Assembly (NCBI GenBank): GCA_943355085.1
Contig: CALREC010000001.1
Span: 1-15,097, forward strand
Length of the DNA stretch: 15,097 nt
DNA from: Candidatus Altimarinota bacterium
GTDB taxonomy: Bacteria; Patescibacteriota; Gracilibacteria; BD1-5; UBA2023
Direction: 5' to 3'
Position 1 is the first letter of the stretch. Each line of letters starts with the position of its first letter. The position numbers and the translations under genes were made by a program. This document shows positions 1 through 15,097 of this stretch, piece by piece. Under the pieces are notes generated by a model. The model did not search any database, had not been told where the DNA came from, and saw only the letters and a list, made by a program, of their open reading frames with translations.

Positions 1-64
1 TGAGGTTGAAAAGATGACGATTATTTAGAAATCAACAGCCCTGGCCTGAGGGGTGAAGGGGCAT
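1..64 (-). CDS. Start of an unidentified gene, truncated by the window edge
   Basis: An ATG at 62-64 lies one base after the TAG stop of the upstream gene. It opens a frame that stays free of UAA and UAG to the window edge when UGA is read as glycine; the peptide begins MPLHPSGQGCGFLNNRHL. Only 21 codons are visible and I recognise no motif, so no function is offered. The one-base spacing would fit translational coupling in the pilin-like operon, but a chance open frame this short is quite possible. Confidence 0.3.
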
Positions 65-65
65 G

Positions 66-1367
66 CTATTGAAAGAAACAGCTCGTTCCAGTTCCTGTTG
101 TGCTTCCGCTTCCAAAGAGCGTTCCACTTCCAAACGTACATCCATTGATGATAAAAGGACGAATCGTATTATTTTGTAATACTTCAAATTGCTTATAGCG
201 ATAATCACCATCGCTGTCTATGATAATATCATTCCCAAAATACTTCATAGTTCCACGTTCCCAGTCATTTATCGGTACTATATATATATCCGTACCTTGC
301 TCATCTTGCATGGATATTTTGTATTTGAGGAAGTCTACTCCTTTGTTCGAATCATTCCCGGAAAATGAGAGAAAAATAGCATAATCTTTATTTTTGAGAT
401 CAAATACTTTTCTCGATCCTATGTCCGTTGTTCCTGATATGCTCATGTCTTGCATAACCCATCAGATAGCTCCATTGGGTCAGGTGCTTATGGTGTTTTC
501 ACGAGGCTCGAGTTCGAGTACGCCGATACTATCAAACTGCTTTTTGTTAAACTCCATGATTTTGAGGGTGTACGACTGGTCAATATCAACATAGAGATAG
601 CCGGACTGGGTATTTCCAGGAAGTGCTCATCCAGGAAGTACTCATCCAGATCATGTGTTATATGCATTGCTCGCAATGTACTTGACGAGAGGGGTATTCA
701 TGGAGAATACACTATACCATCCGGTATCTTTTTTCACATATCCGTATATGTTTTTTCGTCCCATATCATCGTTATCTCTGTATCCATCATTTGGATATTT
801 TGTGTTCGTATCGGAATATGGCTGAAAATCATCACTATCTCCATTGAGATCGATCTGAGACCAGGTATCGGTCGTGGTAAATGAGATATCGGTTTGAAAA
901 GAATCTGTGAATCTCCCACTTCGTGCCCCTGTACTATTGAGCGGGAGGAGTGAAATCTCAGAAGAGAGGTATGATCCAGTGGTAAAGGTATTGCCCGAGG
1001 CAGAGTAGGAGAGTATAAGGTTGCCCTGTGGGACTGCGGTCGATCCAGAGCAGACAAAAACACCCCCCTGAAAATAATGACTGGTAGGGATGGTGTTTTT
1101 ACCCCCACCGGTGGTTCCGCTCAATGTCACAGAGGGACATGCTATGGTATTGGTAAATCCGCTCCCATCAGTATTGACGAGTGTGTTATAGGCTATCGCA
1201 AGAGTTGCTTTCTCGGTGATGTTCGAGTGGAGCTTGCTGTCGTGGACCTGTATATCAACATTTTCTGTGAGCACATCCATCTTGAGTACTACGATGTACC
1301 CTGCTATGACAGCAAAAAAACTCAGCATCATGGCATACAAAAATACACTTCCGTTTTTATTGACCAT
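66..1367 (-). CDS. Membrane-anchored surface protein, PilX-like minor pilin or adhesin (433 aa)
   Basis: The N-terminus (MVNKNGSVFLYAMMLSFF) runs into a single hydrophobic helix at about residues 7-28. Its layout resembles PilX-type minor pilins, but it has no canonical GFTLIE cleavage motif. The rest is a Thr/Ser/Gly/Asp-rich exported-type domain. Two acidic loops, DLNGDSDDF near residue 175 and DSDGDY near residue 390, resemble Ca2+-binding EF-hand or dockerin loops. A Gly/Pro linker near residue 245 carries a GGALP/GGVLP pentapeptide repeat. Five UGA codons (651, 642, 627, 480, 462) must be glycine for the frame to run from ATG to TAG; read as stops they break the gene in two. It starts 3 bases after the stop of the upstream pilin gene, so the two are probably co-transcribed and coupled. 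A type IV pilus tip or minor subunit is an inference from context and the N-terminal helix; the exact family is not recognised. Confidence 0.75.
616..647 (-). repeat. 15-bp tandem repeat encoding a Gly/Pro linker
   Basis: CCAGGAAGTGCTCAT (616-630) is followed by CCAGGAAGTACTCAT (631-645), one mismatch apart, and the start of a third unit. On the minus strand they encode GGALP and GGVLP, with UGA supplying one glycine of each pair. The repeat lies between the two halves of the surface protein and probably forms a flexible hinge. Confidence 0.8.
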
Positions 1368-1370
1368 ATA

Positions 1371-1991
1371 CTAAAAATCAAGAGTAAATGAAAATGTTGC
1401 TACATCGAGGTCGAGCGAGTCCCGTGCGCGTCAAGAAAGTGCTTCATGATAAGGGGCCTCGATATCCATGGTATATTCAAAGATAGCACCAGTATTGTAT
1501 TTGCTGATTGTAAAATTGGTAGCTAGGAGCTCTGGAAAGAGTCCAGCATCTTGAAAGAGTATATCATATGTATTTGCCGGTGTCAATGCTCAAATCTGTG
1601 TAGCATTTAGTTTCTGGTATGCGATAACTTTTTTTCCATAGGTACTTTTGTCGGCAGTGAGTTTTGATACATTTCCCTCTTTTTGATCTACAACTCAGAG
1701 TAATATGCCTGAGGTTTTTTTTGGATTTGTTAAGAGTCCTACATTATATGTACCACTTGCTGTAGAGATGATGGTTGTTTCTGGATAGATCTTCTTAAAA
1801 TTGTTCATGGTGCCGATGAAGTCAGTCATACTCGTGCGTACTCTTGTTGACTGCTTGGAGGTGGTGATGTCTTTTTGTATCTGGATCAGAAATACTAAAA
1901 CTCCTCCCATGATAATCGTAGAGATAGTAACCGCTATGATTATTTCGATAAGGGTAAAACCACGATTATGGTCTTGAGATATATTTTTCAT
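1371..1991 (-). CDS. Type IV pilin-like protein with prepilin signal (206 aa)
   Basis: A short basic leader, MKNISQDHNRG, precedes FTLIEIIIAVTISTIIMGG. This is a textbook class III (prepilin) signal: cleavage after the Gly by PilD, N-methylation of Phe+1, and the conserved Glu+5, followed by the hydrophobic alpha-helix that packs in the filament core. The remaining ~160 residues are a polar, Thr-rich globular part with no cysteine pair that I can see, ending TFSFTLDF. Length and layout resemble PulJ/ComGF-like or minor pilins. The frame stays open upstream of 1991, but that extension lacks pilin character, so the ATG that gives the short leader was chosen. UGA codons at 1695, 1590 and 1431 read as Gly. 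It is first in a minus-strand run with the 433-aa surface protein 3 bases downstream. It is presumably assembled by the GspE/PilB ATPase encoded at 6136-7443. Confidence 0.88.
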
Positions 1992-2049
1992 TTTATTTTT
2001 TAGTAATTTTCTATATACTGGATACCAGCTTTCATAAAGTATATATATT
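1992..2049. promoter_or_regulatory. Compact divergent promoter region between two pilin-like genes
   Basis: Only 58 bases separate the two divergent pilin-like starts, so both promoters should lie here or overlap the genes. Several overlapping AT-rich TATA elements are present around 2013-2019 and 2040-2049. No single -35/-10 pair is convincing and no clear Shine-Dalgarno sequence precedes either ATG. Confidence 0.35.
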
Positions 2050-2493
2050 ATGTATAATTTTTCAAACACAAAAAATGGAGAGACTCTTGTTTCCATAATC
2101 GTCGGGGTAGTGATACTCGGTATAGCGATAAGCGGTATTACTATGATCCTTATACAAAGCCGTGCAATAGAAGCTGACTATGATAGTAATAATTTCATGA
2201 CCATACTCCAATCGAACGCAGAAAATATTGTGAGAAATATTGATACGACTGCTTTTTGAGACAAAGATATATTTTATATCCAAAAAGATGTTGAAACAAA
2301 AATGTTCCGTGCCTTGAGTGGTAGTACCAATGAGCCCTATAGATATATCAATAAACATGGTGACGTCGTTGATCCTGTTACATATATAGGTCCTGTATAC
2401 TCTCGCCTCTTTATCGTAGAAAAGAGCGATGTAAGCATGGGCAAGCCACGACAGATTATAAAATGAGGTATCAAGGAATTTATAAAAAAATAG
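2050..2493 (+). CDS. Type IV pilin-like (PilV/PulI-like) protein (147 aa)
   Basis: The N-terminus MYNFSNTKNG-ETLVSIIVGVVILGIAISG matches a class III prepilin leader followed by the pilin helix, but position +5 after the putative cleavage Gly is Ser instead of the usual Glu. Such substitutions occur in some minor pilins. The ~100-residue C-terminal part is polar, with two UGA-encoded glycines (2257, 2464), and ends KGGIKEFIKK before TAG. Read with UGA as a stop it would be only 69 residues. It is transcribed divergently from the other pilin genes and converges on a small membrane protein gene; its TAG lies inside the left arm of the shared terminator. The role is probably a minor pilin or pseudopilin. 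Confidence 0.8.
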
Positions 2494-2520
2494 TCCCAAG
2501 TAACTTGGGACTATTTTTTT
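2485..2520. terminator. Bidirectional intrinsic terminator between convergent genes
   Basis: A perfect inverted repeat, AAAAAATAGTCCCAAG (2485-2500) and its complement (2504-2519), surrounds a 3-base TAA loop. It gives a GC-rich stem core flanked by A- and T-runs, so it works on both strands. It contains the TAG of the plus-strand pilin gene (2491-2493) and touches the TAA of the minus-strand gene (2519-2521). Confidence 0.92.
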
Positions 2521-2809
2521 ACTTCTGTGGAGCTGTAGGAACTGGTGTTTCTTTTTGTGGTTGTTGGAGACATGCCACATTGATGAGATCAACTTTTTTA
2601 TCTCAGGCATATACATTGAATGGCTTACATTCTTTATTGGAGGCCTGTTCTATGAGACTTGCAACCGTATTGTTTTGTCCTGCAACATATGCATTTTGGA
2701 GGACTCCATTTCGGAAGTTATCAAATATATTATAAGAGATATAGGCAAATGAGAAGATAACCCAGAAAGTAAGGGCAACGCTTTTCCAGTTTGGAGCAGG
2801 GAAATTCAT
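2519..2809 (-). CDS. Small single-pass membrane protein, function unknown (96 aa)
   Basis: From the chosen ATG the protein begins MNFPAPNWKSVALTFWVIF. One membrane helix spans about residues 9-27, then a soluble part contains two cysteines (KECKP and VACLQ) and the tail is Pro/Gln-rich (QKETPVPTAPQK). One UGA (2603) is read as Gly; without it the C-terminal third is lost. In-frame ATGs also occur at 2815 and 2860. The short form puts the helix close to the N-terminus and was preferred, but the sequence does not settle this. The two cysteines could form an extracytoplasmic disulfide. It lies among pilin and surface genes, so an envelope role is plausible; I do not recognise a family. Confidence 0.65.
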
Positions 2810-2896
2810 GATCATTAAAAAGTTATAAATAAAGTTCAAAGAGTATAGATTTTTTCTCATAAAAGACAAGTCTTATATGCTTGCCAAATAGAGATA

Positions 2897-3667
2897 TTAT
2901 TTTATGATGGAAAAAAATATCTCTTGTCATTCCTTTTTTGCCAATCATTTTCATTGAATCGTGCTATCTTCTGGCAGAGAACTCGATGTCGATGTCGATG
3001 TTGTCGGAGTGAGTATGAGGCTCGTATCATTGGTAAAAATGGTACTTGTCACTCCTGTGCTTGGGCTCTGAGGTGTGCTTGGGCTCTGAGGTGTGCCTGT
3101 AGTTTGAGGAGCACTCGTGCTCAGGGAGAGCGCATCTATCTCGAAACCAATTCATTCAAAGTTCTGAAATCCTATGTGTTCACTGTAGGCATAGCCATGC
3201 AGTTTTTTATCTGATTGACAGTAGTATACATATAGGGAATCACTGAAGTCAAAGCGGACAAAGCCAGCTTGATCATTATATGCGAATCACCCGAGCTTAT
3301 ATCCATAGCCTGAGCTACATTTGCCAGTCGTCCCTATGATTCGAACATTTTTTGTAGTATCCGTACTCCAATTGAGCTGGAAGAATTCAAATTGGCTGTC
3401 ATAATAAGCTCCAGTAAAGTAATTTTCTATGATATCACTATCATTATTTTTATTGATATACGAAGCTGCCCCAGTCAAGAACGAAATCTCGCTATTATAT
3501 GATCCGGGAGATGTTGCAGATTGGTTCTTTATGGAACTACTTATAACATCGAGTGCATACGAGAGTGTAAATCCCAGACTTAAAAAGACAAGACATCCCA
3601 TCAAAAAATTCCTATAGAAGGCTCATTTTTTGAGGATGTGTAATGTATATGAAACAAGTGTGGTCAT
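2897..3667 (-). CDS. Anchored surface protein with GxAxxxxxGxxxF repeats (256 aa)
   Basis: The ATG at 3665-3667 gives a basic N-terminus (MTTLVSYTLHILKKGAFYR) and then a hydrophobic helix at about residues 22-42, so it is exported and probably anchored. Two copies of an aromatic motif follow: GGFAYNDQAGFVRF and HGYAYSEHIGFQNF. They resemble the GWAWSxxIGWIxF-type repeats common in surface proteins of CPR bacteria. A Ser/Thr/Pro linker with a perfect 18-bp tandem repeat follows, then a short hydrophobic C-terminal end (EIFFSIIK). Six UGA codons are Gly (3623, 3287, 3152, 2951, 2945, 2927). The start was chosen because the next in-frame ATG (3601) would cut the basic segment before the helix. 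The function is probably cell-surface display; this rests on motif resemblance only. Confidence 0.7.
3056..3091 (-). repeat. Two perfect 18-bp tandem repeats in a Ser/Thr/Pro linker
   Basis: TGTGCTTGGGCTCTGAGG occurs at 3056-3073 and again, identical, at 3074-3091. On the coding strand it encodes PQSPST-type hexapeptides. A slippage-prone linker of this kind can vary in length between strains. Confidence 0.9.
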
Positions 3668-3763
3668 AAAAAAAGAAAGTTATGTGAACTTGTGCATAGT
3701 GTATCGCATATATTCGTCTGTGTCAAAAAAATATGAGCTCTTTACGAAAAGAGCCAATTAAAT

Positions 3764-3791
3764 TTGACTAAACTAGCGTTTCCCATACAAT
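3764..3791 (+). promoter_or_regulatory. Sigma70-type promoter for fusA
   Basis: TTGACT (3764-3769) and TACAAT (3786-3791) are separated by 16 bases. Transcription would start about 7 bases on, leaving a leader of roughly 55 bases before the fusA ATG. An upstream 7-bp hairpin (GCTCTTT at 3737, matched by AAAGAGC) is present but no T-run follows it on the plus strand. Confidence 0.6.
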
Positions 3792-3799
3792 TCCCGGAA

Positions 3800-3824: not shown

Positions 3825-3851
3825 CTAATTTTCTTAACTATATGTATATCT

Positions 3852-5987
3852 ATGGCAATTGCAACCGACCTTAAAAATATTCGTAATATTGGTATTATCG
3901 CGCATATCGATGCGGGAAAAACTACCACTTCTGAGCGTGTTCTTTTCTATACTGGAAAGACTCACAAGATCTGAGAGGTTCATGAAGGAGCTGCGACAAT
4001 GGACTGGATGGCACAAGAACAAGAACGAGGTATTACTATTACTTCCGCTGCCACAACCTGTGAATGGAAAGGAACTCAGTTCAATCTTATCGATACTCCA
4101 GGTCACGTGGATTTCACGATCGAAGTAGAACGCTCTATGCGCGTACTTGACGGAGGAGTTGCTGTATTTGATGCATCTCAGGGGGTTGAGCCTCAGTCTG
4201 AAACTGTTTGGAAACAGGCTGATAAGTATGGAGTTCCTCGAATCGCATTTGCGAACAAGATGGATAAGACTGGTGCATCTTTTCAGATGACATATGATTC
4301 TATCAAGAAACGTCTTTCTGGAAATAAAGTTATCGCTATCCAGATGCCTATGGGCGAGGAGGCTGAGTTCGTTGGTATTATAGACCTTGTGGCTATGAAA
4401 TCTTATACTTTCGAAGGAAAGATGGGAGAAAAGGTTGTAGAAGCAGAGATACCAGCACAGTATCTCGAAAAGGCACAGACTATGCGTCTCGATGTTATCG
4501 AGAAAGCTGCTGAACAATCAGATGAGCTTATGGAGGTATATATGGAATCTGAAACACTTACGACAGAACAGATCAAAAAAGGGCTCCGACTTGGAACTAT
4601 TACGAGTTCTATCTATCCACTCATGTGTGGATCTTCCCTTATGAATAAAGGGGTTCAATTGGTGCTTGATGCCGTTGTAGACTATCTTCCATCTCCATTG
4701 GATGTAAACGCAGGAACTATTACTGGTTCTGACGAGGATGATATCGAAAAGAAAATTACCTATAAGCAAAATAAAGATGAGCCTCTTACGGCTCTTGCGT
4801 TCAAGATCGCAACTGATCCATTTGTCGGTCGAATCACATTCGTGCGCGTATACTCTGGAACTCTGAAATCTGGTTCGTATGTATACAATCCGATTTCTGG
4901 ACAAAAAGAGCGTATCGGTCGTTTATTGCAGATGCACGCAAATAATCGTCAAGAAATTGAAGAGATTCCTGCTGGAAATATCGGAGCTGTTATCGGACTT
5001 AAGGATACTAAAACAGGAGACACTCTTTGTGAGGTAGATAAGCCAGTAGTTCTTGAGCGAATGACTTTCCCAGAACCGGTTATCTCTATCTCAGTAGAGC
5101 CAAAGACCAAGGCTGATCAGGAGCGAATGGGTATGGCCCTCTCAAAACTTGCCGAGGAAGATCCTTCTTTCCGAGTAACGTCCAATCCTGAAACCAATCA
5201 GACTATCATATCCGGAATGGGAGAACTGCATCTTGAGATTATCGTTGATCGTATGAAGCGTGAGTTTAAAGTTGAGTCCAATGTCGGAGCTCCTCAGGTA
5301 GCGTACCGAGAAACTATTACTCAAAAAGTAGTAGACGCTGAGTTCAAGCACCAGAAACAAACGGGAGGTCGTGGACAATATGGACATGTTATTATCACTT
5401 TTGATCCAATTACATCAGACGAACGAAAGGCCGATCCAGAGTTCAAGGAAGAAAATGTATTTATCAACAAGGTAGTCGGAGGAACGATTCCAAAGGAATA
5501 TATCCCAGGAGTTGAGAAAGGTCTTCGGGATGCTTGGTCTCGAGGTATGATCGCTGGTTATCCTGTGGTTGATGTACGAGCGACTCTTACCTTTGGTTCG
5601 TATCATGATGTCGATTCGAATGAGCTTTCATTTAAGATGGCAGCATCAAAATGTTTCCGTGAGGCAGCAAAGAAGGCTCGTCCAACACTCCTTGAGCCAG
5701 TTATGCTTGTAGAAGTAAACACCCCGGAAGAATATATGGGAGATGTACTTGGAGGTATCAACTCAAAACGAGGACAAATCATAGAGATGACCGAGCGAGG
5801 AATGGCAAAGATTATCAAGGCATATGTTCCACTTGGAGAAATGTTTGGATACTCAACAGATCTCCGGTCTATGTCACAAGGACGTGCGACATACGTTATG
5901 GAGTTCTCTCATTATTCTGCTGTTCCAACAGCACTTACTGAGAAGATTCGCGCAGAACGTGGAGTCAAGTTTGATGACGAAGAATAA
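3852..5987 (+). CDS. fusA: Elongation factor G (711 aa)
   Basis: EF-G is the GTPase that drives translocation on the ribosome and, with RRF, ribosome recycling. Visible motifs in order: G1 AHIDAGKT (residues 17-24), switch I with [26 protein letters not shown], then domain II, III and V signatures such as [10 protein letters not shown] and GQYGHV. Length is normal for bacterial EF-G. The ATG at 3852 gives the usual short lead into the P-loop. Codon 41 is UGA (3972-3974), in [15 protein letters not shown], where nearly all EF-Gs have glycine; with the standard code the gene would lose its P-loop. It is the only UGA in 711 codons, in contrast to neighbouring genes. The gene is monocistronic: no rpsL, rpsG or tuf adjoins it, unlike the classical str operon. 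Confidence 0.98.
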
Positions 5988-6135: not shown

Positions 6136-7443
6136 CTAGTCAATGACACTGAACAATTCCTCAAGTGTTGTTTTTCCTCTCATAGCTTTCAGTACACCAT
6201 CCTCTCTCATGAGCATGAGATCTTGTTCTTTTCATTTTGCTAGTATCTCTGCTGGACTTGCCCCAGTTCGAATGAGCCCCCTTATCTCGTCCGAGAAGTT
6301 AAGTACTTCGTAGATACCAAGTCGACCTTTAAAACCTGAGTATCCACACTGCTCACACCCTTTTCCTCGATGGAGAGTAAAGCTATTTTTCTTGGCCTTG
6401 GATACAGCCTCTATACCGATATCTTGCATCATCCATTTGATGATTTCGGTTTCTTCTGTTGTCGCTTCATATGATTCAGAACAGTGCGAACATATTTTCC
6501 TTACCAATCTCTGTGCTATGATTATATCTATCGCCGAAGCTAATATGTAGGAGGGGAGTCACATATTGGTCAGGCGTTCTATCGTTTCTGAAGCACTTTT
6601 AGTATGAAGGGTGGAGAGTACTAAGTGTCCAGTCAGGGAAGCTTGAGCGGCAATATCTGCTGTTTCGAGATCACGTATCTCTCCAATCATAATCACGTCT
6701 GGATCTTGGCGCAAGAGTGCCTTGAGGCCACTCGCGTAGGTATAGTTATTTTTTTCATTTACTTCCGATTGGACAACCCCCTCAAGTTCATATTCGATTG
6801 GGTCCTCGAGTGTAATCACTTTTTTTTCAGAGGTATTGAGTGTTGAAAGAACCGAATAGAGTGTAGTCGTTTTACCACTTCCCGTTGGACCCGTAACAAG
6901 AATCATCCCATTCTTTTTCCCGGTACTTTTTTCGATTTGACGTTTCGATGTCCACATAAATCAGAGGTCACTCAGTGGTGGTATCGAGTTGGTAGAGTCG
7001 AGTATACGACATACAGTATTTTCACCAAGTTTTACCGGTAGAGTCGAGACACGCACATCTATACGCTCTCACTTATCGTCTATGCGATATTTTCCATCCT
7101 GTGGAATTTGTGTCAGATTAAGTTTCATATTTGACTTATATTTGAGACGCTCAAGTACAAGTTTATATTCTGCAGTGGTCAGTTCAAATATCGTTACAAG
7201 ATTGCCATCGATTCTTAGTCGAATGGCTATGGACGAAGGCTTTATATCATAGTGTATATCAGAACCCCCAAGCGAAAGGGCTCCTTTGGTGATAAGGGTG
7301 AGTGCCGTATCAGAATCCTGCTTTAGAAGAGCTTCACGAACGAAGCGCTCGAGCTCTTGAAATTTTGTAGAATGAAATCAAGTATTTTCTTTTAAAAGCA
7401 CTTCTTTCATTTTCTTAAAATCTTCTTCTGTTTGTATAGGCAT
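6136..7443 (-). CDS. pilB: GspE/PilB-family pilus or secretion assembly ATPase (435 aa)
   Basis: This hexameric cytoplasmic ATPase powers extension of type IV pili or type II pseudopili. Motifs seen: Walker A GPTGSGKT (residues 185-192), Asp box ITLEDPIEY, Walker [10 protein letters not shown] (247-255), His box STLHTKSA (about 277), and the tetracysteine zinc motif CSHC (318-321) with CEQC (363-366), typical of GspE/PilB rather than PilT. The C-terminus ([10 protein letters not shown]) also fits. At 435 aa it is shorter than the usual 550-570; it begins almost directly at the N2 domain and lacks most of the MshEN-type N-terminal region that binds platform-associated partners. Five UGA codons (7378, 7069, 6961, 6559, 6232) are Gly; one starts [11 protein letters not shown], a conserved segment. 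An upstream in-frame ATG at 7482 would add 13 residues. It is the likely motor for the pilins at 1371-2493; no retraction ATPase, platform protein or prepilin peptidase is in the window. Confidence 0.95.
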
Positions 7444-7503
7444 AAGTCAGATATGAGAGCGAGTAAAACAATTACAGGGCATTCTATCATATATTAATAT
7501 GTA

Positions 7504-7574: not shown

Positions 7575-7811
7575 ATGCCATTGAATGAATCACAATTACT
7601 TATTCTTGCTATCTATAGTATAGTATTTTTCTGTGTTGTTATATTTTTTGAGATACGACTCAACTATATACATGCTCGTCATATAGAAAAACTTTGGCCA
7701 GTAGGTGAGGATGGCCTGAGGATGATAGATCGTAAATTAAAGATAATTGTGCGTATTCTTTTTGTGATTTTATTTCTCTTATCTGTTGCGACTATTCTTA
7801 CTCTTTTATAG
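7575..7811 (+). CDS. Small two-helix membrane protein, function unknown (78 aa)
   Basis: Two strongly hydrophobic segments (about residues 7-27 and 56-77) flank a basic, soluble loop containing HARHIEKLWPVGEDGLRMIDRKLK. This is a hairpin-type membrane protein. No UGA codons; it ends with TAG, 9 bases before the next start, so it should be co-transcribed with the PH-domain protein that follows. No family is recognised. The pairing of a small membrane protein with a PH-like membrane protein suggests that they act together. Confidence 0.7.
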   Translation: MPLNESQLLILAIYSIVFFCVVIFFEIRLNYIHARHIEKLWPVGEDGLRMIDRKLKIIVRILFVILFLLSVATILTLL

Positions 7812-7820
7812 CTACCACCT

Positions 7821-8360
7821 ATGAATATCTGGGCAGAAGAGAACTATACCATAGTTACGAAACATTTTATATATTTCCTCTATCTGGTTGCAAAATTTCT
7901 TTTTTTGCTTGTGATTGCGGGCATGCTTTTTGCCTCCTTGGTCATATATAAGGAAGATTTTGCGAAAGATACATCGGAAATAGTAAAGTATGTATTTTTC
8001 CCTGTGATATTTTTATTGGTCAATTATGGCTTTATCCAGCTCATACTTTGAATCATACGCTATTACAATAATCTCGTCATTATTGTACGAGACAAGTTTA
8101 TTATTATACATAGTTCTCTGATGCTGCGTGAAGACTTAGAGATTATGGATCTTGGCAAAGTCATGAAGATAGACGTGGTGTGTCATGGAATTCTCGCAAG
8201 TATTTTTTGATATGGACACTTGGTTATGGAACAACAAAAAGACGAAGTTCGCACGATACGATTTATTCCTCACCCCTATAAGGTGTGTCAAATCCTTCGC
8301 GAAAACACAACGTCTACAGGCCGATGATGACAAGAGGTTCGATTTTTTAAAACTCGTTAA
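7821..8360 (+). CDS. Membrane protein with a bacterial PH-like domain (179 aa)
   Basis: Two transmembrane helices (about residues 18-42 and 55-78) are followed by a soluble domain of about 95 residues. That domain has the look of bPH2/YdbS (DUF304)-type PH domains: VIIVRDKFIIIHSS, a central LEIMDLGKVMKIDV strand-turn-strand, then a Gly-Tyr-Gly turn (FGYGHLVME) and VRTIRFIPHP. Such proteins are usually small membrane proteins of uncertain role, sometimes tied to envelope stress. UGA at 8049, 8208, 8325 and 8328 reads as Gly; the first sits just after the second helix, so the standard code would remove the entire soluble domain. It is followed after three bases by the next gene, indicating tight coupling. 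The domain assignment is from the pattern, not from a search. Confidence 0.7.
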
Positions 8361-8363: not shown

Positions 8364-8852
8364 ATGTTTGAATTTCTTTTTAAGAAAAAATACCCCTCTT
8401 CACCGATACAATCGTGCTCACTCATAGATTTGTCGACAGAGACAAGCAATTTTTTTCAGGAATTGACTGAAGAATTTTCTTTCTTATTATTTGATGAGAT
8501 TTTGATCCTCAGGAAGCTCCCATGATGATATGAATTAGTACACCATCAAGAGTACTCAAAGCAAGCCCAGGCAGACAAAAATTGGCGTGATCGAGTTATC
8601 GGCAATATAGACCTTTTTTTGAGTAGAATTATAAAAAAAAATGCACTTTCCGATGGGGAATGAGTTTTTACCTGGGATCAATATGGTGCACTTTTTGATG
8701 TGATGGTACGAGAAGGAGACTACTATATAGTACTTAACAACTCTGGAGAGTCTCTCTCAGATCTTATGAAAAATCATCCTTTTAATGAGTCGAAACTGAT
8801 TCGTTTTCTCGCCAAATTTGCTCGACGTTTTAGTAATAGCCCTCATGTGTAG
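8364..8852 (+). CDS. Uncharacterised cytoplasmic protein (162 aa)
   Basis: The ATG lies three bases after the preceding stop. The protein starts MFEFLFKKKYPSSPIQ and has no signal peptide, no membrane segment and only one cysteine. It is mixed alpha/beta in character, with a charged helical stretch (QEYSKQAQADKNWRDRVIGN) and a C-terminal helix (FNESKLIRFLAKFARRF). Three UGA codons (8523, 8526, 8661) are Gly, two of them adjacent. No family is recognised. It is held between the PH-like membrane protein and the RNHCP protein in a single operon ending in tilS, so a conserved neighbourhood search would be the best clue to its role. Confidence 0.7.
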
Positions 8853-8854: not shown

Positions 8855-9169
8855 ATGTCATTTGCTATGTATAATGAATCTTTTCAGTGTGAGTGGTGTA
8901 ACCAGTTTGTTGCATGTCACCCTGAAGGTTCGGCGAGAAATCATTGCCCATTTTGTCTCTGCTCTCAGCATGTAGATCATCTAAGCCCATGAGACAGGGC
9001 TTCCAGTTGTCATGCAAAGATGTCCCCTATAAATATAGATTATCGTAAAAATAAAGGGTATATGATTCAGCATGAATGTGTAAAATGTAAAAAAAGTATT
9101 CTCAACAAGGTAGCGCCTGACGATCATTTTCTCGAATTTATAAAAAAACTCAATAAAGAAAGAATGTAA
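8855..9169 (+). CDS. RNHCP-domain zinc-ribbon protein (104 aa)
   Basis: The signature RNHCPFCLCSQHVD (residues 28-41) is that of the RNHCP family (named for this motif), small cysteine-rich proteins of unknown function. Cysteine pairs CEWC (12-15), CPFC (31-34) and CVKC near residue 78 look like zinc-ribbon ligands. Residue 46, the Gly of the PGDRA segment downstream of the signature, is encoded by UGA (8990-8992). The ATG at 8855 lies 2 bases after the previous stop, and tilS follows after 12 bases. The cysteine pattern and its place beside tilS point to an RNA-related role, but that is inference only. Confidence 0.9.
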
Positions 9170-9181
9170 CACATAAAGTAT

Positions 9182-10117
9182 ATGCTTCAAAAAATTCTCT
9201 CTCAATACAATCTCACTTCTCAGGATCGCCTTGTTATAGCATGTTCATGATGACCTGACAGCATGTATCTCTTGACGGAGATTGTAAAGATTCATGCACA
9301 GGAACAACTGATTGTAGCCCACTTTAATCATGGACTCCGAGGAGCCGAAAGTGATGCGGATGAACTATTTTTACGAGATTATTGCCATACTCATCATTTT
9401 GTGTTTGAAACAACCAAACAAGATATCGCGAGTACCGCCAGAATGATCAAAAAATGAATCGAGGAAACCGCCAGAATCGAGCGATATGCCTTTCTTGCTT
9501 CTATCATGAAACAGTATGCTGCAAAATATATACTTACAGCACATCATCTCGATGACAATATAGAAACTCTCATACTTAACCTCATTCGAGGTACAAAAAT
9601 GCATGGACTCACAGGTATTCCTGAGCAAAATCAATCTACACTCCGGCCGCTTTTAGGTATTACCAAGACTGAAATCATCCAACAACTTACCATCAATAGC
9701 ATCCCATATACGATTGACTCGACCAATGCGGACGATACATATTTGCGCAACCATGTGCGCCTCAATATAATCCCCCTCTTTGAACGCATTAATCCAGAAT
9801 ATCGCCATAATCTTGGATCATTTATCTCATATGCAAAAGAGTTAGTGGGTTTTCTCGATGCTCAGGTATTGATGTTTCTAAAAGAACAGTCCCTTTTTCT
9901 TGTAGAGGATTTTCAAACTATATCGTACTTTCTCCAACGAGAAGTGATTCGATATCTCTACGAACAAGCAAACGCTGGAACTATTGGACTTTCTGAATGA
10001 TGAATTGCTGAGATTATTCGCTTTATCTGAGATAAGGGGAATTATACCCAGAAAGATCTCGGGAAATTACATTTAGAAAAAAAGAATGGACGAGTTTATT
10101 TTTCGAGTCGTATATAG
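9182..10117 (+). CDS. tilS: tRNA(Ile)-lysidine synthetase TilS (311 aa)
   Basis: TilS attaches lysine to C34 of tRNA-Ile(CAU), using ATP, so that it reads AUA instead of AUG; it is normally essential. The PP-loop ATP-binding motif is SGGPDS (residues 22-27), and both glycines are encoded by adjacent UGA codons (9248-9253). Other signatures: [34 protein letters not shown], and [12 protein letters not shown]. Six UGA codons in all (9248, 9251, 9455, 9998, 10001, 10028). At 311 residues it matches the short class, which lacks most of the C-terminal tRNA-binding domains of the 432-aa E. coli enzyme. It is the last gene of the plus-strand operon. Its TAG lies 22 bases inside the convergent ruvB gene. 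Confidence 0.96.
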
Positions 10118-11124
10118 CGTTCACCGCTCTCAGAAAGCTTTCGCCCTCGGGGAGTGCGTTCGAGAAAGCCGATTTTTAGAAGATACGGCTCGACTACATC
10201 TTCGATGGTTTCCTCCTCCTCTCATACAATAGAGGCGAGTGTGTGGAGTCCAACAGTACGCCCAGCAAAATTGTACGCAAGGATATGGAGGAGTTTGCGA
10301 TCGAGTTCATCGAGACCAAGAGCATCTATGCCCAGAGACGTAAATATCTTCTCTGCTTCGATAGGACTGTCTATGTTGTGTCCGACGATTTGATAATCAC
10401 GAAGTGTTTTGACAAATCTATTTACTATACGTGGGGTGCCTCGGCTTTTACGAGCAACCAGTTCCCAGATCTCACTTTTCTCGACCAAGATACCGAGTAT
10501 ACGAAAAGATCGACGTACAATCTCTGCAAGATCTGCAATCTCATAGAAATCAAGCTTGAGAACATTTCCAAACCGGTCACGAAGAGGACCAGAAATCTTC
10601 GCAAGCTTCGTAGTCGCACCGATAAGGGTAAATTTTGGAATATCCATACGAATCGATGTGGCTCCTGTCCCTGTACCAATCATGATATCGATGGCAAAAT
10701 CTTCCATGGCGCTATAGAGAATCTCCTCGATCTGAGGTCTGAGGCGATGAATCTCGTCTATAAAAAGTATATCTCCCTCTTGTAGGCTTGTGAGCAGAGA
10801 CACAATATCGGCTTGTTTCTCGATAGCCGGACCACTCGTCTGCTTGAGATGCGATTGCATCTCCGAGGCGATAATAGCCGAAAGTGTTGTTTTCCCAAGT
10901 CCTGGAGGACCATACAAGAGTATATGTTCCAATGATACTTTTCGAATTTGGGCTGATTTTATGGCGATATTCAGGTGTTTTTTGATCGATTCTTGTCCGA
11001 TGTATTCACTGAGTGTTTTGGGACGGAGGATATTCTCATTCACCATATCATTTTCTCGCTCTACTGGAGCCACAACGCGTGAAGACTCTGGAGCTTCTGA
11101 GATTTTAGTAGATTTTATGACCAT
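10096..11124 (-). CDS. ruvB: Holliday junction branch-migration ATPase RuvB (342 aa)
   Basis: RuvB hexamers drive branch migration of Holliday junctions with RuvA and RuvC. Seen here: [12 protein letters not shown] lead-in, Walker A GPPGLGKT (residues 72-79), Walker B with FIDEIHRL, sensor region [18 protein letters not shown] including the arginine finger, and the winged-helix C-terminus ([19 protein letters not shown]). One UGA (10222) is Gly, within [21 protein letters not shown]; the standard code would delete the C-terminal domain. The start at 11124 gives a normal length; a second in-frame ATG at 11046 (MVNENILRP) is also reasonable. The 3' end overlaps tilS by 22 bases in convergent orientation. 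ruvA and ruvC are not adjacent. Confidence 0.97.
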
Positions 11125-11223
11125 GAGAGAATTGTTTAATGATGATTTGGTGCTTGTTAACAACAAGAAATGTATCACTTACTTTATTCATTTATACACA
11201 TTTTCTCCAAAAAATCTATTTTT

Positions 11224-11253: not shown

Positions 11254-11340
11254 GCTCAAGCTTCTTATATTAAATATAATCTTTCTCTCCTATTTCTCCA
11301 TAGGTGAGCTACATTTCTCTATCATTAATAATCACATATC

Positions 11341-11778
11341 ATGGCACCTAAAAAGAAACCTAAAAAGATTGTTAAGCTCCAACTTAAGGCGGGTATGGCA
11401 AATCCAGCTCCTCCAGTCGGAACCGCCCTTGGACCTACAGGAATTCAGATTGCAGAATTTTGTAAACAATTTAATGAAGCTACTCGAGATAGAATGGGAA
11501 TGGTTCTTCCAACTATCATAAATATCTACGAGGATCGTTCATTTGATTTCTATACAAAACAACCACCGATGACTTATCTTATTAAGACTGAACTCAATCT
11601 CAAGAGTGGATCAAAACTCCCTCATAAGGATAAAGTAGCCCATCTTACTCTTGATCAGCTCAAGAAAATTGCTGCTCTTAAGATGGTGGATCTCAATGCA
11701 AACGACGAAGCTATGGCAATGTCGATCATTGCTGGTTCTGCTCGAAGTATGGGTATCACTACTGATCTCAAGAAATAA
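11341..11778 (+). CDS. rplK: Ribosomal protein L11 (145 aa)
   Basis: L11 binds the GTPase-associated region of 23S rRNA and supports factor-dependent GTP hydrolysis. Seen: basic N-terminal tail (MAPKKKPKK), KLQLKAGMANPAPPVG, EDRSFDFYTKQPP, LKSGSKLPHKDKVAHLT and the C-terminal SIIAGSARSMGI motif. Length is normal. There are no UGA codons, as expected for a highly expressed gene. The usual PPVGPALG loop reads PPVGTALG here (Thr28 in place of the conserved Pro, in the loop where proline changes alter thiopeptide binding). rplA, the normal partner downstream, is missing; a palindromic element and a tRNA follow instead. Confidence 0.98.
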   Translation: MAPKKKPKKIVKLQLKAGMANPAPPVGTALGPTGIQIAEFCKQFNEATRDRMGMVLPTIINIYEDRSFDFYTKQPPMTYLIKTELNLKSGSKLPHKDKVAHLTLDQLKKIAALKMVDLNANDEAMAMSIIAGSARSMGITTDLKK

Positions 11779-11780
11779 AA

Positions 11781-11816
11781 CCTCACTCCAACCCTCTCCT
11801 AGAAGGAGAGGGGGCT
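11781..11816. repeat. GC-rich palindromic element after rplK
   Basis: CCCTCTCCT (11792-11800), loop AGA, AGGAGAGGG (11804-11812), within the longer sequence CCTCACTCCAACCCTCTCCT. It resembles the widespread dispersed palindromes of the CCTCACCC...CCCTCTCC type found in many bacterial genomes and is much more GC-rich than its surroundings. No T-run follows, so it is not a classic terminator, though it may slow polymerase or protect the rplK 3' end. Confidence 0.6.
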
Positions 11817-11827
11817 GGTGGAAATAC

Positions 11828-11903
11828 GGCGTCATCGTCTAACGGTTAGGACGCGGGATTCTCATTCCCGCAATCGGAGTTCGATTCTCCGTGACGTCAC
11901 CAA
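11828..11903 (+). tRNA. tRNA-Glu (anticodon CUC)
   Basis: Complete cloverleaf of 76 bases including an encoded 3' CCA. The acceptor GGCGTCA pairs with TGACGTC (one G-U), the D arm has the TCTAACGGTTAGGA pattern typical of tRNA-Glu, the anticodon stem CGGGA/TCCCG closes the loop TTCTCAT with CTC at 11861-11863, and the T arm is CGGAG-TTCGATT-CTCCG. It reads GAG (and not GAA), so a second tRNA-Glu(UUC) must exist elsewhere. A strong terminator follows. Confidence 0.97.
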
Positions 11904-11922
11904 TGTTAAATTTGTAAACGTA

Positions 11923-11965
11923 AAAATCCCTTTGTTGAGCTCAAAAGCCGCAAGGGATTTTTTAG
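11923..11965 (+). terminator. Terminator after tRNA-Glu
   Basis: AAAAATCCCTT (11923-11933) pairs perfectly with AAGGGATTTTT (11953-11963) across a 19-base loop, ending in a T-run. It lies 19 bases after the tRNA CCA end. Confidence 0.85.
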
Positions 11966-12090
11966 AGAATAAAAGCTATCAAACATTTGTCAAATTAGAA
12001 TCGATGTATCCTTTGCATATTTCTATTCAGTCCAAATATCCCAGTTTATAAAAATGTTCTCCGTCAATATATTTTGAGACCTCTTTTAAT

Positions 12091-12128
12091 AAAGAAACTT
12101 CGCTGTATTAAAGTTTCTTTAAATTTTT
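12091..12128. terminator. Bidirectional terminator downstream of the AbrB-like gene
   Basis: AAAGAAACTT (12091-12100) and its exact complement AAGTTTCTTT (12111-12120) enclose a 10-base loop. AAATTTTT follows on the plus strand, and an A/T-rich tail follows on the minus strand. It lies about 45 bases beyond the minus-strand stop at 12164. The rest of 11966-12163 shows no gene that I can support. Confidence 0.65.
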
Positions 12129-12163
12129 ATGAAAGGATATGGTTAATATTATTTTCATAATGT

Positions 12164-12433
12164 TTATACATGAGAAAGTAGTGCATCCAATTCGACCAAT
12201 TTCCCATCACTATGTGCCTTATTAAATGCTTTTACCACAGCCTCATCAAATGCTTTTTCTTCAGAGTCTAGGGAATCTGCTTTCATATGGAGATTTGCAT
12301 TTTGAATAAAAACTCAGTTTGAGGTGAGTTTTGCTATTACAAAAGTATCTTTCGTAATTCATAAAGTCTTTCTCCATGCTCAAGGGATAGTAATCTGACC
12401 TTTTCAGATAGGCTTTATAAGCGTTTGATTCAT
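12164..12433 (-). CDS. AbrB/SpoVT (MazE-like) DNA-binding protein (89 aa)
   Basis: The N-terminal ~45 residues match the swapped-hairpin AbrB fold: LIKPIGKGQITIPGAWRKTLGI, then TFVIAKLTSNGVFIQ. The usual pattern is 'kkGqitIP..lR..LGi..gd'. Such proteins act as transcription regulators or as antitoxins that repress their own operon. The acidic, helical C-terminus (DSLDSEEKAFDEAVVKAF) could be a toxin-binding tail. Four UGA codons (12404, 12380, 12359, 12314) are Gly, which hides this gene completely from standard-code calling. No toxin gene follows; a terminator lies directly downstream, so it is an orphan regulator or a solitary antitoxin. Two AAGTTAAA direct repeats just upstream of the start (12441-12456) could be an operator. 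Confidence 0.85.
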
Positions 12434-12440
12434 ATTTTAA

Positions 12441-12456
12441 AAGTTAAAAAGTTAAA
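12441..12456. repeat. Direct repeat AAGTTAAA x2 upstream of the AbrB-like gene
   Basis: AAGTTAAA at 12441-12448 and 12449-12456, 8 bases before the start codon, between it and a TATACT -10 candidate (minus strand, 12465-12470). Placement suits autoregulation by the AbrB-like protein, but AT-rich repeats arise easily by chance. Confidence 0.35.
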
Positions 12457-12515
12457 CTTTTGAAAGTATATTCAATTTCCCCAAAAATCAAAAACAAATT
12501 TTCGGCGTTTTGTAC

Positions 12516-12536
12516 AGATGTTGCACTGCAACATCT
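12516..12536. repeat. 21-bp perfect palindrome
   Basis: AGATGTTGCA, a central C, then TGCAACATCT. It sits 8 bases after the stop of the S74 fragment (minus strand) and about 80 bases upstream of the AbrB-like start. No T-run follows on either strand, so an operator is as likely as a hairpin terminator. Confidence 0.75.
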
Positions 12537-12543
12537 CTATCAA

Positions 12544-13029
12544 TTACTGACACATACTCGCACTCGGATGATCTAGACAGATGAGAGATTTGAGATCTTG
12601 ATTTTCTTTTTTCAATTCTTTCACTGCCTCTATAAGAGGAGCAAAAAGTCCTCCATAATCAACCGACCGTATTCATTTATTATTTTTGTAGACGACCTGT
12701 GGATATTCTGATTCTACTTCCTGGGCGATAATCCCTATTTTCTGACCTTCCCCGCGCCATTTTTCGGAGTCTTTCCATTCAAATGAAACTCCGCGAATAG
12801 CGATAATCTTATCAAGTGCGCCAGTGAGAGTTGTTATATTCTTTTTCAAACTACGATCCGATGAAGAGCAAGATGTGCCATAATTAAACTCTCCATTGGC
12901 ATCTTTACAGATATAATATCCACCTCCACCAGATGGCATTCAGGGGTTACGAATACGCCCATTCCCAGGAGAGGTTCAAGCCTCAAGTGATACCTGGGGA
13001 CTCGTTGTCCCGATCCCGACGTTGCCAGA
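12544..13029 (-). pseudogene. Headless S74-chaperone fibre gene fragment (about 161 codons)
   Basis: The frame begins directly after the toxin's TAG with SGNVGIGTTSPQVSLEAG, the repeat unit of the fibre protein at 13730-15097. It then continues through PGMPSGGGGYYICKD into an apparently complete S74 intramolecular chaperone domain: SSSDRSLKKNI (self-cleavage site region), ALDKIIAIRGVSFEWK, IGIIAQEVESEYPQVV, then a coiled helix and CLDHPSASMCQ. UGA at 12976, 12940 and 12673 is Gly. No start codon precedes the repeat unit; the first internal ATG (12939) would give a 131-aa chaperone-only protein. The N-terminal shaft is missing, apparently replaced by the toxin-antitoxin pair. It is called a pseudogene, though expression of the chaperone alone cannot be excluded. 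Confidence 0.8.
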
Positions 13030-13305
13030 CTATCCAAAAATTTCACTATGGGAATTCACCCTGAGAAGATAGAGAACGAGATCTCATTTTGAGACTTCAT
13101 ATACCAGGAGAAGATCAGGTGATACATGACATTCTCTACAACCTTCCCACTCTCACTGAAGCTTGTGATCGTGATAGCTCGAATCCAAATTTTCTCACTT
13201 TTGAAGCTTGGATATGACAAAATAGAGTTCTTTCAGAACTTTAATATTCTTCTCAAGCTTCTTGAACTCCCTCCTATATTTAGTTGATAACTTTATTGTG
13301 TACAT
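13030..13305 (-). CDS. yafQ: YafQ/RelE-family mRNA interferase toxin (91 aa)
   Basis: Toxins of this family cut mRNA on the ribosome when freed from their antitoxin. MYTIKLSTKYRREFKKLEKN starts like the family, and the C-terminal half carries the signature DHKLQGEWEGCRECHVSPD followed by LLLVYEV and a final RVNSHSEIF. Likely catalytic residues by analogy with E. coli YafQ: His47, His60, Asp64, His86 and Phe90; the Trp that follows the Asp in E. coli is Leu here. UGA at 13195, 13153 and 13084 supplies three glycines. The ATG at 13303-13305 gives the normal family length and overlaps the preceding small gene by 26 bases, the usual antitoxin-toxin arrangement. The TAG stop abuts a fibre-gene fragment in the same frame. 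Confidence 0.92.
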
Positions 13306-13519
13306 CTTTTCAGAGTTCAGAGATAAATAAGTCATCCACGCTTTTATAGCTCTCTTTTGCTTTTCTTGCAGAGCTTCTCTCACTATTGAGTGAGTCTTTT
13401 TTCTGATCAAAGAGCACGATTATTTTCACATATTCATTCGAGTACTGTTTTCCAATATTCACAACACCCGACAGAGTATGTCATTTTACCCTCTTCTCTA
13501 TAGCAAAAGCTGTGTTCAT
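13280..13519 (-). CDS. Putative antitoxin of the YafQ-type toxin (79 aa)
   Basis: The position (directly upstream, 26-base overlap with the toxin) and size make this the cognate antitoxin. It begins MNTAFAIEKRVKGHTLSG, with a beta-rich N-terminal half (SGVVNIGKQYSNEYVKIIVLF) and a charged helical C-terminal half (ERSSARKAKESYKSVDD) that could bind the toxin. It does not look like the ribbon-helix-helix DinJ/RelB antitoxins normally paired with YafQ, and I do not recognise its DNA-binding fold. UGA at 13481 and 13310 is Gly. The identification rests on context, not sequence similarity. Confidence 0.72.
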
Positions 13520-13550
13520 AGATTATGAAATTTATAGATTAATTTTTATT

Positions 13551-13577
13551 ATTATACCAAAAACCCCAAAAACTCAA
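13551..13577 (-). promoter_or_regulatory. Extended -10 promoter for the toxin-antitoxin pair
   Basis: On the minus strand TTGGTATAAT gives a perfect -10 (13556 to 13551) next to a TGG element, with TTGAGT (13577 to 13572) 15 bases upstream. It would leave about a 25-base leader before the antitoxin ATG. The rest of 13580-13729 shows only a weak 6-bp inverted repeat. Confidence 0.5.
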
Positions 13578-13729
13578 AAAGGAATTTACCATACCTCACC
13601 GCTTACTAGGGAGTCTTGAGTAAGGGCTCATAAACCTCGATTTATTTATTGCAATGCAGAAAGTATGTAAATTCAAGATAGATATACGCTCTCTTTAGTC
13701 CCACAAGCATGTATTATAGATGTTTTGAC

Positions 13730-15097
13730 TTATTTTTGCATCAATTGTTCTATCTTGTCCAATCGAGCTTTGATTTCTGAATTTTCCTGCATTAACTGAG
13801 CATTCTCTTTTTTTATAACAGCTATCTCTCTGTGAATTTCTGTGCTATCTTCCATCCATTGTGCGTACAACTCTTTAATGGCGTTGATAATTGGTGAAGT
13901 TAGCTGTGAGTAGTTCATAGATTTGAACCCCTTGCTATCTGTTTTAATAAGTGCTGGGAATACTTTCTCGACTTCTTGTGCTATAAGTCCTACTTGTTTG
14001 GAAGAATCAAAGGACTGATCTTTCCAGTAGTATGAAACACCCTGAAGTTGCAGAATCTTATCGAGTGATTTTTCCAAAGGATGAATGTCTTGTTTTAATC
14101 GAATATCCGAGACATTTGTATATACGCCCGAAGTATTAACGCCACCACCTTGAACATCTAGCTTGTATCAAGGACTCGTCGTTCCAATCCCAACATTGCC
14201 AGAACCGGCGATTCGCATTCTTTCTGTATATCAACCTCAGTTACCAAAGCGAATAACGCCAGAAGTAATTGGATTGGCAATAAGAAGATCTTCGGTAGAA
14301 TCACCATATAGTGAACCTGACACACCAATCATTCCAGATGTATTTCCTCCTGTTTTTCATAAAGCAAAATAACCTCCACCACTACCCTCCGATACATTCG
14401 CTCAATAAAGTAATAATGCGCTTCGATTTTGTGACCTAATATCTAACGTTCCCACAGGACTCGCCGTCCCAATACCGACGTTACCATTTGGAAAAATAGT
14501 CATGGGTTCTGTATTTCCAAAAATAAAGCCAAGTCGATTAGTCGCTGGACCATATGAATTGTAACTAAACATTCCCCATTTTGAAGTTCAGTTTTCAGAA
14601 AAATTTATTCAAGACACGCTTCCACTCGCACTATTTACATTTATCATTCCATGTCCACTAGAATTACTTACTTCAAATTTTGATTGTATGCCTTGATAAA
14701 GACCTGGACTCACCGTCCCGATACCGACATTCCCACCAAGTGGATTCAATAAAAGATTGAACGCCGGTCCAGCAATCCCTGGTTGAGATGATTGTATCCA
14801 GTTACCAGAATTGGAATTTCCTATACCAAGCCAATTATTACCTCCATTTCGTACAAGTATTGAAGCTTCTGGATTTTCAGAATTACTCGGTAGACTATTT
14901 CCTCCTACTATCATCAATTTATTTCTTGGATCTGTCGTCCCGATCCCCACGTTACCAGAACCAGTAATACGCATTACTTCTGTATTTCCATCACTAGTTC
15001 CAATAAATTTAAATGCTCCTGCTGTTCCAAATCACATTCCATTACCATAACTGTAAAGCCCTGGGTCAAGTGATGCGCCGGCATTTAGAGACTTTGT
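13730..15097 (-). CDS. Modular fibre protein with C-terminal S74 self-cleaving chaperone (5' end beyond window)
   Basis: At least 455 residues are visible. Four spaced copies of the unit GNVGIGT(T/A/V)xP occur near 14950, 14720, 14475 and 14190, separated by Gly/Asn/Ser-rich beta-type segments, as in trimeric tail-fibre and adhesin shafts. The C-terminus is an S74 (endosialidase-type) intramolecular chaperone: TNVSDIRLKQDIHPL with the autocleavage Ser, SLDKILQLQGVSYYWKD, QVGLIAQEVEKVFPALI, MNYSQLTSPIINAIKEL, then a terminal coiled coil. These chaperones trimerise the fibre and then cut themselves off. UGA codons (8 by my count, among them 15032, 14609, 14588, 14402, 14357, 14231, 14168) are Gly. 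It could belong to a prophage-like element or be a cellular surface adhesin; no phage structural genes are nearby, which favours the latter. Confidence 0.92.

Follow-up and report, generated by a model that had tools for sequence, protein, structure and literature searches.

The question raised by this window, the whole 15,097-bp stretch (39% GC) of contig CALREC010000001.1 from a Candidatus Altimarinota bacterium, is how the codon UGA is read. With translation table 25, in which UGA is glycine, the window yields 19 genes. UGA is almost certainly read as glycine there by a tRNA-Gly(UCA), the cell having probably lost release factor 2 (RF2). This is the published code 25 and not a new one.

In-frame UGA codons in the window and its genome

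As first drawn, the 19 frames (4585 codons) contained 57 in-frame TGA codons. The count falls to 56 once pilB is trimmed to a start matching the length of its relatives (435 aa), because the TGA at 7449 sits upstream of the likely pilB start. A preliminary description made from the letters of the window had counted about 58; the presence of UGA inside genes stands, while the figure was slightly high. At least one UGA is present in 17 of the 19 genes, the exceptions being rplK and a small gene at 7575-7811. The gene ends comprise 11 TAA and 8 TAG, and none of the 19 is TGA, as had also been described. This last count is partly circular, because frames called with code 25 cannot stop at TGA, but family ends agree: EF-G, PilB, RuvB, L11 and YafQ finish their Pfam families near those stops. 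Under table 11, EF-G is shortened to 662 aa beginning at 3999 and most UGA-containing genes fragment. Without table 25, EF-G, PilB, TilS and the majority of the remaining genes of the window are truncated in error, so this table has to be used.

The assembly to which the window belongs (777 kb in 133 contigs) is 78% complete. Codon signal was assessed around interior TGAs in the window and in 15 further stretches of its genome that do not overlap; at 35 of the 81 TGAs, lying in 17 open reading frames (ORFs), it was in frame on both sides. The same test returned 0 of 53 in RF2-bearing relatives of the class (11 of 15 genomes with enough sequence) and 1 of 26 in standard-code low-GC loci (19 of 21 loci). 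Furthermore, rpoB of this genome carries seven in-frame UGA codons in an otherwise open frame. The nearest named relatives of the window's PilB are Candidatus Gracilibacteria proteins, at 89-90% identity, and the EF-G, rpoB and joined trees place the genome within its order. A contig scan with EF-G returned no close relative, the best reaching 61%.

Residues at UGA positions

In order to compare candidate residues, ten window proteins were scored against Pfam with UGA as glycine and as tryptophan, and seven also with alanine, serine, arginine and cysteine. Glycine gave the top score of the six residues in all six compared domains that span a UGA. The scores in bits, ordered Gly/Trp/Ala/Ser/Arg/Cys, were 378.2/367.3/374.6/374.2/371.1/370.9 for T2SSE (PilB), 165.4/152.7/156.3/157.1/153.5/155.3 for ATP_bind_3 (TilS), 95.8/86.4/91.7/92.0/91.7/88.8 for YafQ, 95.6/92.0/93.6/93.4/92.6/90.4 for RNHCP, 216.8/214.3/215.9/216.0/215.9/214.4 for GTP_EFTU (EF-G) and 84.0/81.2/82.9/83.7/83.4/81.4 for RuvB_C. 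The gap between glycine and tryptophan was widest in the TilS PP-loop domain (12.7 bits), PilB (10.9) and YafQ (9.4), and narrow in EF-G (2.5) and RuvB_C (2.8). L11, which has no UGA and served as internal control, scored identically under codes 25 and 4. The MazE-like protein matched its family at 20.1 bits with glycine, under the family's own cut-off, and with tryptophan gave no match at equal threshold; a single structure search with this protein also gave none.

Glycine was likewise found at these positions in known structures. In the best Protein Data Bank chains, with UGA forced to tryptophan, glycine stood at 3/3 sites in TilS (3a2k), 3/4 in PilB (4pht) and 1/3 in YafQ (4nrn), or 7 of 10 sites combined in the printed alignments as read by eye. 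A second PilB chain, 5oiu, had glycine at 2 of 4 sites.

Conserved columns, those with at least 70% agreement among references, were then examined against 87 reference proteins for EF-G and 14 for rpoB. UGA codons of the own genome fell on glycine in 6 of 7 such columns and on serine in one, and UGG fell on tryptophan in 6 of 6. UGA columns were glycine in 83/90, 76/82 and 83/90 cases in the relatives G031, G016 and G119. In-frame UGA codons, glycine at their columns, UGG as tryptophan and gene ends in TAA or TAG are properties of the window and its own genome. A tryptophan reading of CGA or CGG in this genome was ruled out, the columns being mostly arginine (CGA: 16 arginine, 3 lysine and 1 asparagine of 20; CGG: arginine in 2 of 2). 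These arginine columns bear on the question of whether some Gracilibacteria read CGG as tryptophan.

The UGA sites singled out in the preliminary description, in EF-G (3972), TilS (9248, 9251), PilB (6561), RNHCP (8990) and YafQ (13155), were all recovered. Its statement that UGA falls on conserved glycines applies to many sites; at some sites in PilB and TilS the relatives mostly carry another residue. Its exclusion of tryptophan is borne out by the six Pfam domains, by the structures and by UGG remaining on tryptophan.

Use of UGA among glycine codons

UGA makes up 56 of the 357 glycine codons in the window (16%). It is rare in EF-G (1/57), L11 (0/8) and RuvB (1/23), and accounts for half or more of the glycine codons in the toxin-antitoxin genes mazE (4/6) and yafQ (3/5). 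This minor use, and the rarity in EF-G, L11 and RuvB, would fit a codon whose decoding is slower or scarcer. The UGA share in EF-G varies among relatives, from 0 in G005 to 32/59 in G016 (same family) and 47/66 in G031; rpoB has 73 UGA codons in G016, and 75 against 17 GGN in G031.

tRNA(UCA) and release factors in relatives

A DNA search of 58 members of the same order and the own genome located tRNA(UCA) in 50 of the 58, and in 5 of 6 within the genus. A 51st match (G018) was the end of a tRNA-Gly(UCC) and was dropped. All 33 copies that were read out have the anticodon TCA, the pairs G1-C72, C2-G71 and G3-C70, and U73, the rule used to call glycine acceptors in the accessible part of PMC8629427. 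The UCA tRNA of the relatives is 79 nt long with an ordinary variable loop, and ARAGORN labels it tRNA-SeC. In G005, of the same genus, tRNA(UCA) stands beside tRNA-Arg(GCG), and tRNA-Gly(UCC) and tRNA-Trp(CCA) are also present. The glycine set of G005 consists of Gly(UCC) and Gly(UCA) only, with no Gly(GCC); other order members (L167, L175, L217) have Gly(GCC) together with the UCA tRNA. The D region of the order's tRNA(UCA) (L155-L184, L217, L219, L220) is near-invariant, and the usual GG is found in 0 of 33; GG is retained in tRNA-Gly(UCC) of G005 and in the UCA tRNAs of two class genomes outside the order, G069 and G195. A first tRNA pattern had given eight matches, judged by eye to be chance, and a slightly stricter one gave a single match in 380 genomes of the phylum, not tRNA-like by eye.

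An RF-1 domain was found in 53 of the 58 order-mates, as a single copy in 52 and as two in G058. Among 12 of these release-factor loci we take 8 to be RF1 by motif and one, in G058, to be RF2 (L005, L009 and L010 not counted). Of the 193 class genomes, the own one among them, 113 have an RF2 match (TIGR00020) that exceeds the cut-off; all 113 belong to the 122 genomes outside the own order and a family designated f13, and the match was missing in 9 of the 122. It was found in 0 of 35 order-mates and 0 of 35 f13 genomes. The tRNA-Gly(UCA), the tRNA-Trp(CCA) and the lack of RF2 over cut-off are thus documented in relatives only. In the mechanism proposed for the own genome, glycyl-tRNA synthetase would charge tRNA(UCA), RF1 alone would terminate at UAA and UAG, and the missing fifth of the genome would hold the same decoding parts as the relatives.

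Weighing of the glycine reading and its alternatives

Several observations weigh against glycine as the meaning of UGA or against the loss of RF2. The own assembly contains 18 tRNA genes, none for glycine or tryptophan; the preliminary description had proposed a search for tRNA-Gly(UCA), and in the 78% complete assembly none appeared, the genus-mates being where it was recovered. An RF2 gene, named there as refuting evidence, did not appear either, but a release-factor domain of either kind is absent from this assembly, RF1 included, so that the absence of RF2 is established only in relatives. Five order-mates likewise have no release-factor domain, and seven (G002, G008, G020, G021, G023, G025 and G026) gave no tRNA match. 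G058 (2.7 Mb in 500 contigs) encodes on contig 153 (L001) a second release factor with the RF2-type motifs SPF and RHTSF; this factor is likely contamination, its motif being unlike those of RF2s of the class. Class RF2s (L369-L388) read SPF followed by RQTSF or RETSF. The histidine that we presumed would precede TSF in RF2 is missing in 20 of these 20 and in G069. With respect to the residue itself, the lead of glycine over serine is under 1 bit in both GTP_EFTU (0.8) and RuvB_C (0.3), and RuvB_N gains 2 bits with alanine, though the UGA falls outside RuvB_N. PilB residue 431 is alanine in 98/120 near and 112/118 more distant relatives, PilB 152 is aspartate in 105/118 distant relatives and glycine in 57/120 near ones, and TilS 92 and 274 are serine in 75/119 and asparagine in 82/119 relatives, respectively. 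The gene calls of many near relatives were themselves made with code 25 or code 4, and glycine or tryptophan there is not independent. Since a freely used glycine codon also arises at non-glycine sites, the PilB and TilS exceptions were not counted as contradictions.

Four other readings of UGA were considered. An ambiguous codon, at which glycine insertion competes with RF2 termination in a change still incomplete, would suit the unseen release factors of the own genome, the avoidance of UGA in EF-G, L11 and RuvB, and the class relative G069, which seems to hold both RF2 and tRNA(UCA). It is nevertheless very unlikely given that no order-mate of 35 has RF2 over cut-off and that UGA is abundant even in the EF-G (32) and rpoB (73) of G016, a member of the same family. 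Tryptophan (table 4), as in Mycoplasma, opens identical frames, and code 4 is what some databases use to call genes on such contigs, two matching proteins (P0062, P0146) bearing the name 'uncultured bacterium (gcode 4)'; the lower tryptophan scores in all six Pfam domains, the loss of the weak MazE match, the mostly glycine UGA columns with UGG on tryptophan, and the glycine identity bases of the relatives' UCA tRNA make this reading highly improbable. That UGA is simply a stop, the genes being decayed or missequenced or the window chimeric, draws on a fragmented and incomplete assembly, yet it would have to accommodate 56 UGAs within 19 otherwise open frames, family matches that cross them, internal stops in the relatives' release-factor domain and in the own-genome rpoB that are all TGA, and the coding signal on both sides at 35 of 81 interior TGAs; its probability is extremely small. 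Selenocysteine, for which the ARAGORN label on the UCA anticodon is the sole support, has a vanishing probability: the tRNA, of 79 nt, has an ordinary variable loop, cysteine scores below glycine in six of six domains, and no tested UGA column is cysteine.

Relation to known genetic codes

Rinke (2013) is said to have predicted a code with UGA as glycine for a Gracilibacteria group. Code 25 (Candidatus Gracilibacteria/BD1-5) agrees with the glycine reading of the window in UGA as glycine, UGG as tryptophan, UAA and UAG as stops and, in the relatives, tRNA-Gly(UCA) and no RF2. No difference was seen, and UGA use in the window is lower than in some relatives, e.g. rpoB of G031. Proteomics of BD1-5 yielded 97 peptides unique to UGA as glycine, 3 unique to tryptophan and 0 to stop, according to the available part of Hanke 2014 (PMC4032931), and the code is screened in the portion of PMC8629427 at hand. 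The code of SR1/Absconditabacteria is similar in UGA as glycine, in a tRNA-Gly(UCA) with divergent D arm and in the loss of RF2 (available parts of PMC4695839 and PMC8629427, the former recording the divergent D arms of SR1 tRNA). It differs in that CGA and CGG are predicted there, in the same parts, to be tryptophan, whereas in the own genome they lie mostly on arginine columns.

Code 25 has also been applied to the order GCA-2401425 of the class Gracilibacteria, where it was chosen by ORF length (PMC9793634, accessible part). By comparison, the class genome G070, which may belong to that order, uses UGA for most glycine codons, and in the trees it joins an RF2-bearing family. Among species filed as Gracilibacteria, two have RF2, lack the tRNA and use UGA as a stop, as given in the available text of PMC8629427. 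Bacterial UGA reassignment is tied to the disappearance of RF2 in the portion seen of a review that gives rival accounts of its onset (PMC4695839), and a 2026 review, in its accessible part, gives a single-origin account citing Ivanova 2014 (PMC13293708).

A class genome with both RF2 and tRNA(UCA)

The genome G069 (95% complete, 1% contamination) is the single representative of its order in the class set. A UCA-tRNA pattern with glycine-type acceptor matched 61 of the 193 class genomes. By eye, the matches were tRNA-like in 33 of 35 order-mates, in one of 35 f13 genomes (G195) and in the RF2-bearing G069, but not in the own genome or in 25 others. Outside the order, ARAGORN was applied to G195 and G069. 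Because almost every f13 genome escapes this pattern, a lack of matches elsewhere carries little weight. The tRNA(UCA) of G069 (L215:4485-4561) lies on a 7.3 kb contig and has a canonical D loop; the neighbouring frames we take to encode glutamine synthetase and isoleucyl-tRNA synthetase. RF2 of G069 has the SPF and GGQ motifs and deviates at none of the 56 columns that are conserved among 20 RF2s of the class. Decay of this RF2, considered because it reads SPFNAKNLRQTSF where we had presumed SPFDSGGRRHTSF, was ruled out, 20 of 20 other class RF2s also being without that histidine.

Of the 180 interior TGAs counted in 477 kb of G069, 126 were flanked on either side by codon signal. These 126 fall in 30 of the 328 ORFs (approximately 9%), which include type IV pilus and membrane proteins. 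A plain tally of ORFs with interior TGA (41/328 in G069, 12/86 in RF2-bearing relatives) gave no separation; it was taken to include spurious frames and was therefore replaced by the two-sided test, which separates G069. On contig 59 (59.6 kb), a distance of 3 kb separates prfB, which has no TGA (L222:6984-8006), from a pilB that has five (L222:10886-12130); at these five sites 115, 66, 117, 118 and 14 of 118 relatives have glycine. Scores in bits with glycine versus tryptophan were 437.6 vs 427.6 and 420.3 vs 412.1 for T2SSE, 228.2 vs 218.3 for TrkH, 205.7 vs 200.2 for T2SSF, 72.6 vs 68.8 for PrsW, 31.7 vs 27.1 for TSP3 and 25.7 vs 23.3 for DUF6702, and equal for MshEN and NicO. Neither code gave a Pfam family for three further TGA-containing proteins, nor did code 25 for a fourth.

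The nearest matches of G069 PilB overall were 88% and 81% identical. The latter, P0241 on a 2.6 kb ENA contig, has tryptophan at 4 of the 5 TGA sites, the residue that gene calling with code 4 would put there, so that a second assembly agrees with G069. Derivation of the UGA genes of G069 from a code-25 donor is unsupported for PilB, whose best named relatives are Peregrinibacteria (67%), a Gracilibacteria protein matching at 63%. TGA near the 3' end only was found in 10 of 328 G069 ORFs, against 12/86 and 18/226 in control sets, and these ten may end at real UGA stops. Table-11 ORF ends of G069 look ordinary (TGA in 31/315 vs 9/79 and 17/219 in controls), interior TGAs being counted in.

On these genomic signatures, G069 may represent a candidate intermediate stage of UGA reassignment, in which RF2 and a glycine-type tRNA(UCA) occur together. 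No report of RF2, tRNA-Gly(UCA) and UGA-glycine in one bacterium was found in the open-access titles and abstract openings searched, subscription papers being outside this coverage. If G069 does combine UGA-glycine codons with RF2 and a tRNA-Gly that reads UGA, the tRNA-first path through an ambiguous intermediate would become testable in a living lineage.

G070 and the number of origins

G070 (L264-L283, L314-L368) has 25% GC; across the frames of 322 kb, UGA occurs 5621 times and GGN codons 944 times. Its UGA columns were glycine in 93 of 106 conserved columns of EF-G and rpoB, and neither a UCA tRNA nor a release factor was found in approximately 660 kb. A tRNA of G070 (L268:3026-3102) has CCG as its anticodon and G73 as its discriminator, one of two features used to call tryptophan acceptors provisionally in the accessible part of PMC8629427. 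CGG may be tryptophan in G070; no CGG occurred in the columns tested.

Trees were built from EF-G, rpoB and both joined (25 genomes), i.e. two genes with no firm root. The own order and f13 each formed well-supported groups in all three. G069 and G070 fell within RF2-bearing families, G070 beside G080 (99.6/100, joined tree). The neighbour of G069 varies by tree (f4, f12, f17), rpoB alone leaves G070 unplaced, and in the EF-G tree the own order is closer to RF2-bearing families than to f13. AU tests reject forcing onto the own order and f13 for G070 (p 0.019), G069 (p 0.003) and both (p 0.0007), and the SH test does not reject it for G070 (0.112). The two-gene trees suggest separate origins of UGA as glycine. 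It is somewhat probable that UGA was reassigned to glycine more than once in the class, with G069 caught mid-change (tRNA first, RF2 still kept, UGA a rare stop) and G070 separate from Gracilibacteria/Absconditabacteria. Independent origins in one class, if true, would disagree with the single-origin account in the available part of PMC13293708.

Gene content of the window

The features of the window are listed in Table 1.

Table 1. Genes and selected UGA sites of the 15,097-bp window, with UGA read as glycine.
Feature	Position	Strand	UGA codons, stop and remarks
Pilus-assembly-like protein (named by look)	66..1367	-	5 UGA: 653, 644, 629, 482, 464; stop UAG
Pilin-like protein, N-terminal methylation motif (PF07963)	1371..2096	-	3 UGA: 1697, 1592, 1433; stop UAG
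Small pilin-like protein (by look only)	2050..2493	+	2 UGA: 2257, 2464; stop UAG
Unknown protein	2519..2869	-	1 UGA: 2605; stop UAA
Unknown protein	2897..3667	-	6 UGA: 3625, 3289, 3154, 2953, 2947, 2929; stop UAA
EF-G (fusA)	3852..5987	+	1 UGA vs 56 GGN glycine codons
EF-G UGA, HKI-G-EVHEG	3972..3974	+	GTP_EFTU bits 216.8 Gly, 214.3 Trp
PilB/GspE-like ATPase (PF00437)	6136..7443	-	5 UGA: 7380, 7071, 6963, 6561, 6234; stop UAG
PilB UGA, SDL-G-F	6961..6963	-	Gly in 4pht, 5oiu and 118/118 relatives of G069 PilB (P0243-P0360)
PilB UGA, NM-G-LPSY	6559..6561	-	Gly in 4pht, 5oiu and 114/118 relatives of G069 PilB
Small unknown protein	7575..7811	+	No UGA; stop UAG
Unknown protein, PH-domain-like by look	7821..8360	+	4 UGA: 8049, 8208, 8325, 8328; stop UAA
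Unknown protein	8364..8852	+	3 UGA: 8523, 8526, 8661; stop UAG
RNHCP-domain protein	8855..9169	+	1 UGA: 8990, P-(UGA)-DRA; stop UAA
TilS	9182..10117	+	6 UGA: 9248, 9251, 9455, 9998, 10001, 10028; stop UAG
TilS PP-loop UGA pair, CS-(UGA)(UGA)-PDS	9248..9253	+	Aligned to SGG of TilS structures 3a2k, 1wy5
RuvB	10096..11178	-	1 UGA: 10224; stop UAA
Ribosomal protein L11 (rplK)	11341..11778	+	No UGA; stop UAA
MazE-like antitoxin	12164..12433	-	4 UGA vs 2 GGN; stop UAA; weak Pfam match
Endosialidase-chaperone (S74) tail-like protein, by look	12544..12939	-	1 UGA: 12675; stop UAA
YafQ-like toxin, bacterial type II pair	13030..13305	-	3 UGA: 13197, 13155 (LQ-(UGA)-EWEG), 13086; stop UAG
Likely partner antitoxin (position only)	13280..13519	-	2 UGA: 13483, 13312; stop UAA
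S74 peptidase (chaperone of endosialidase), open at window end	13730..15097	-	8 UGA: 15034, 14611, 14590, 14404, 14359, 14239, 14233, 14170; stop UAA

The last part of the window (12164-15097) brings together, in adjoining positions, the YafQ-like toxin with its likely antitoxin, the MazE-like protein without a visible partner, and the S74 protein with a possible second one.

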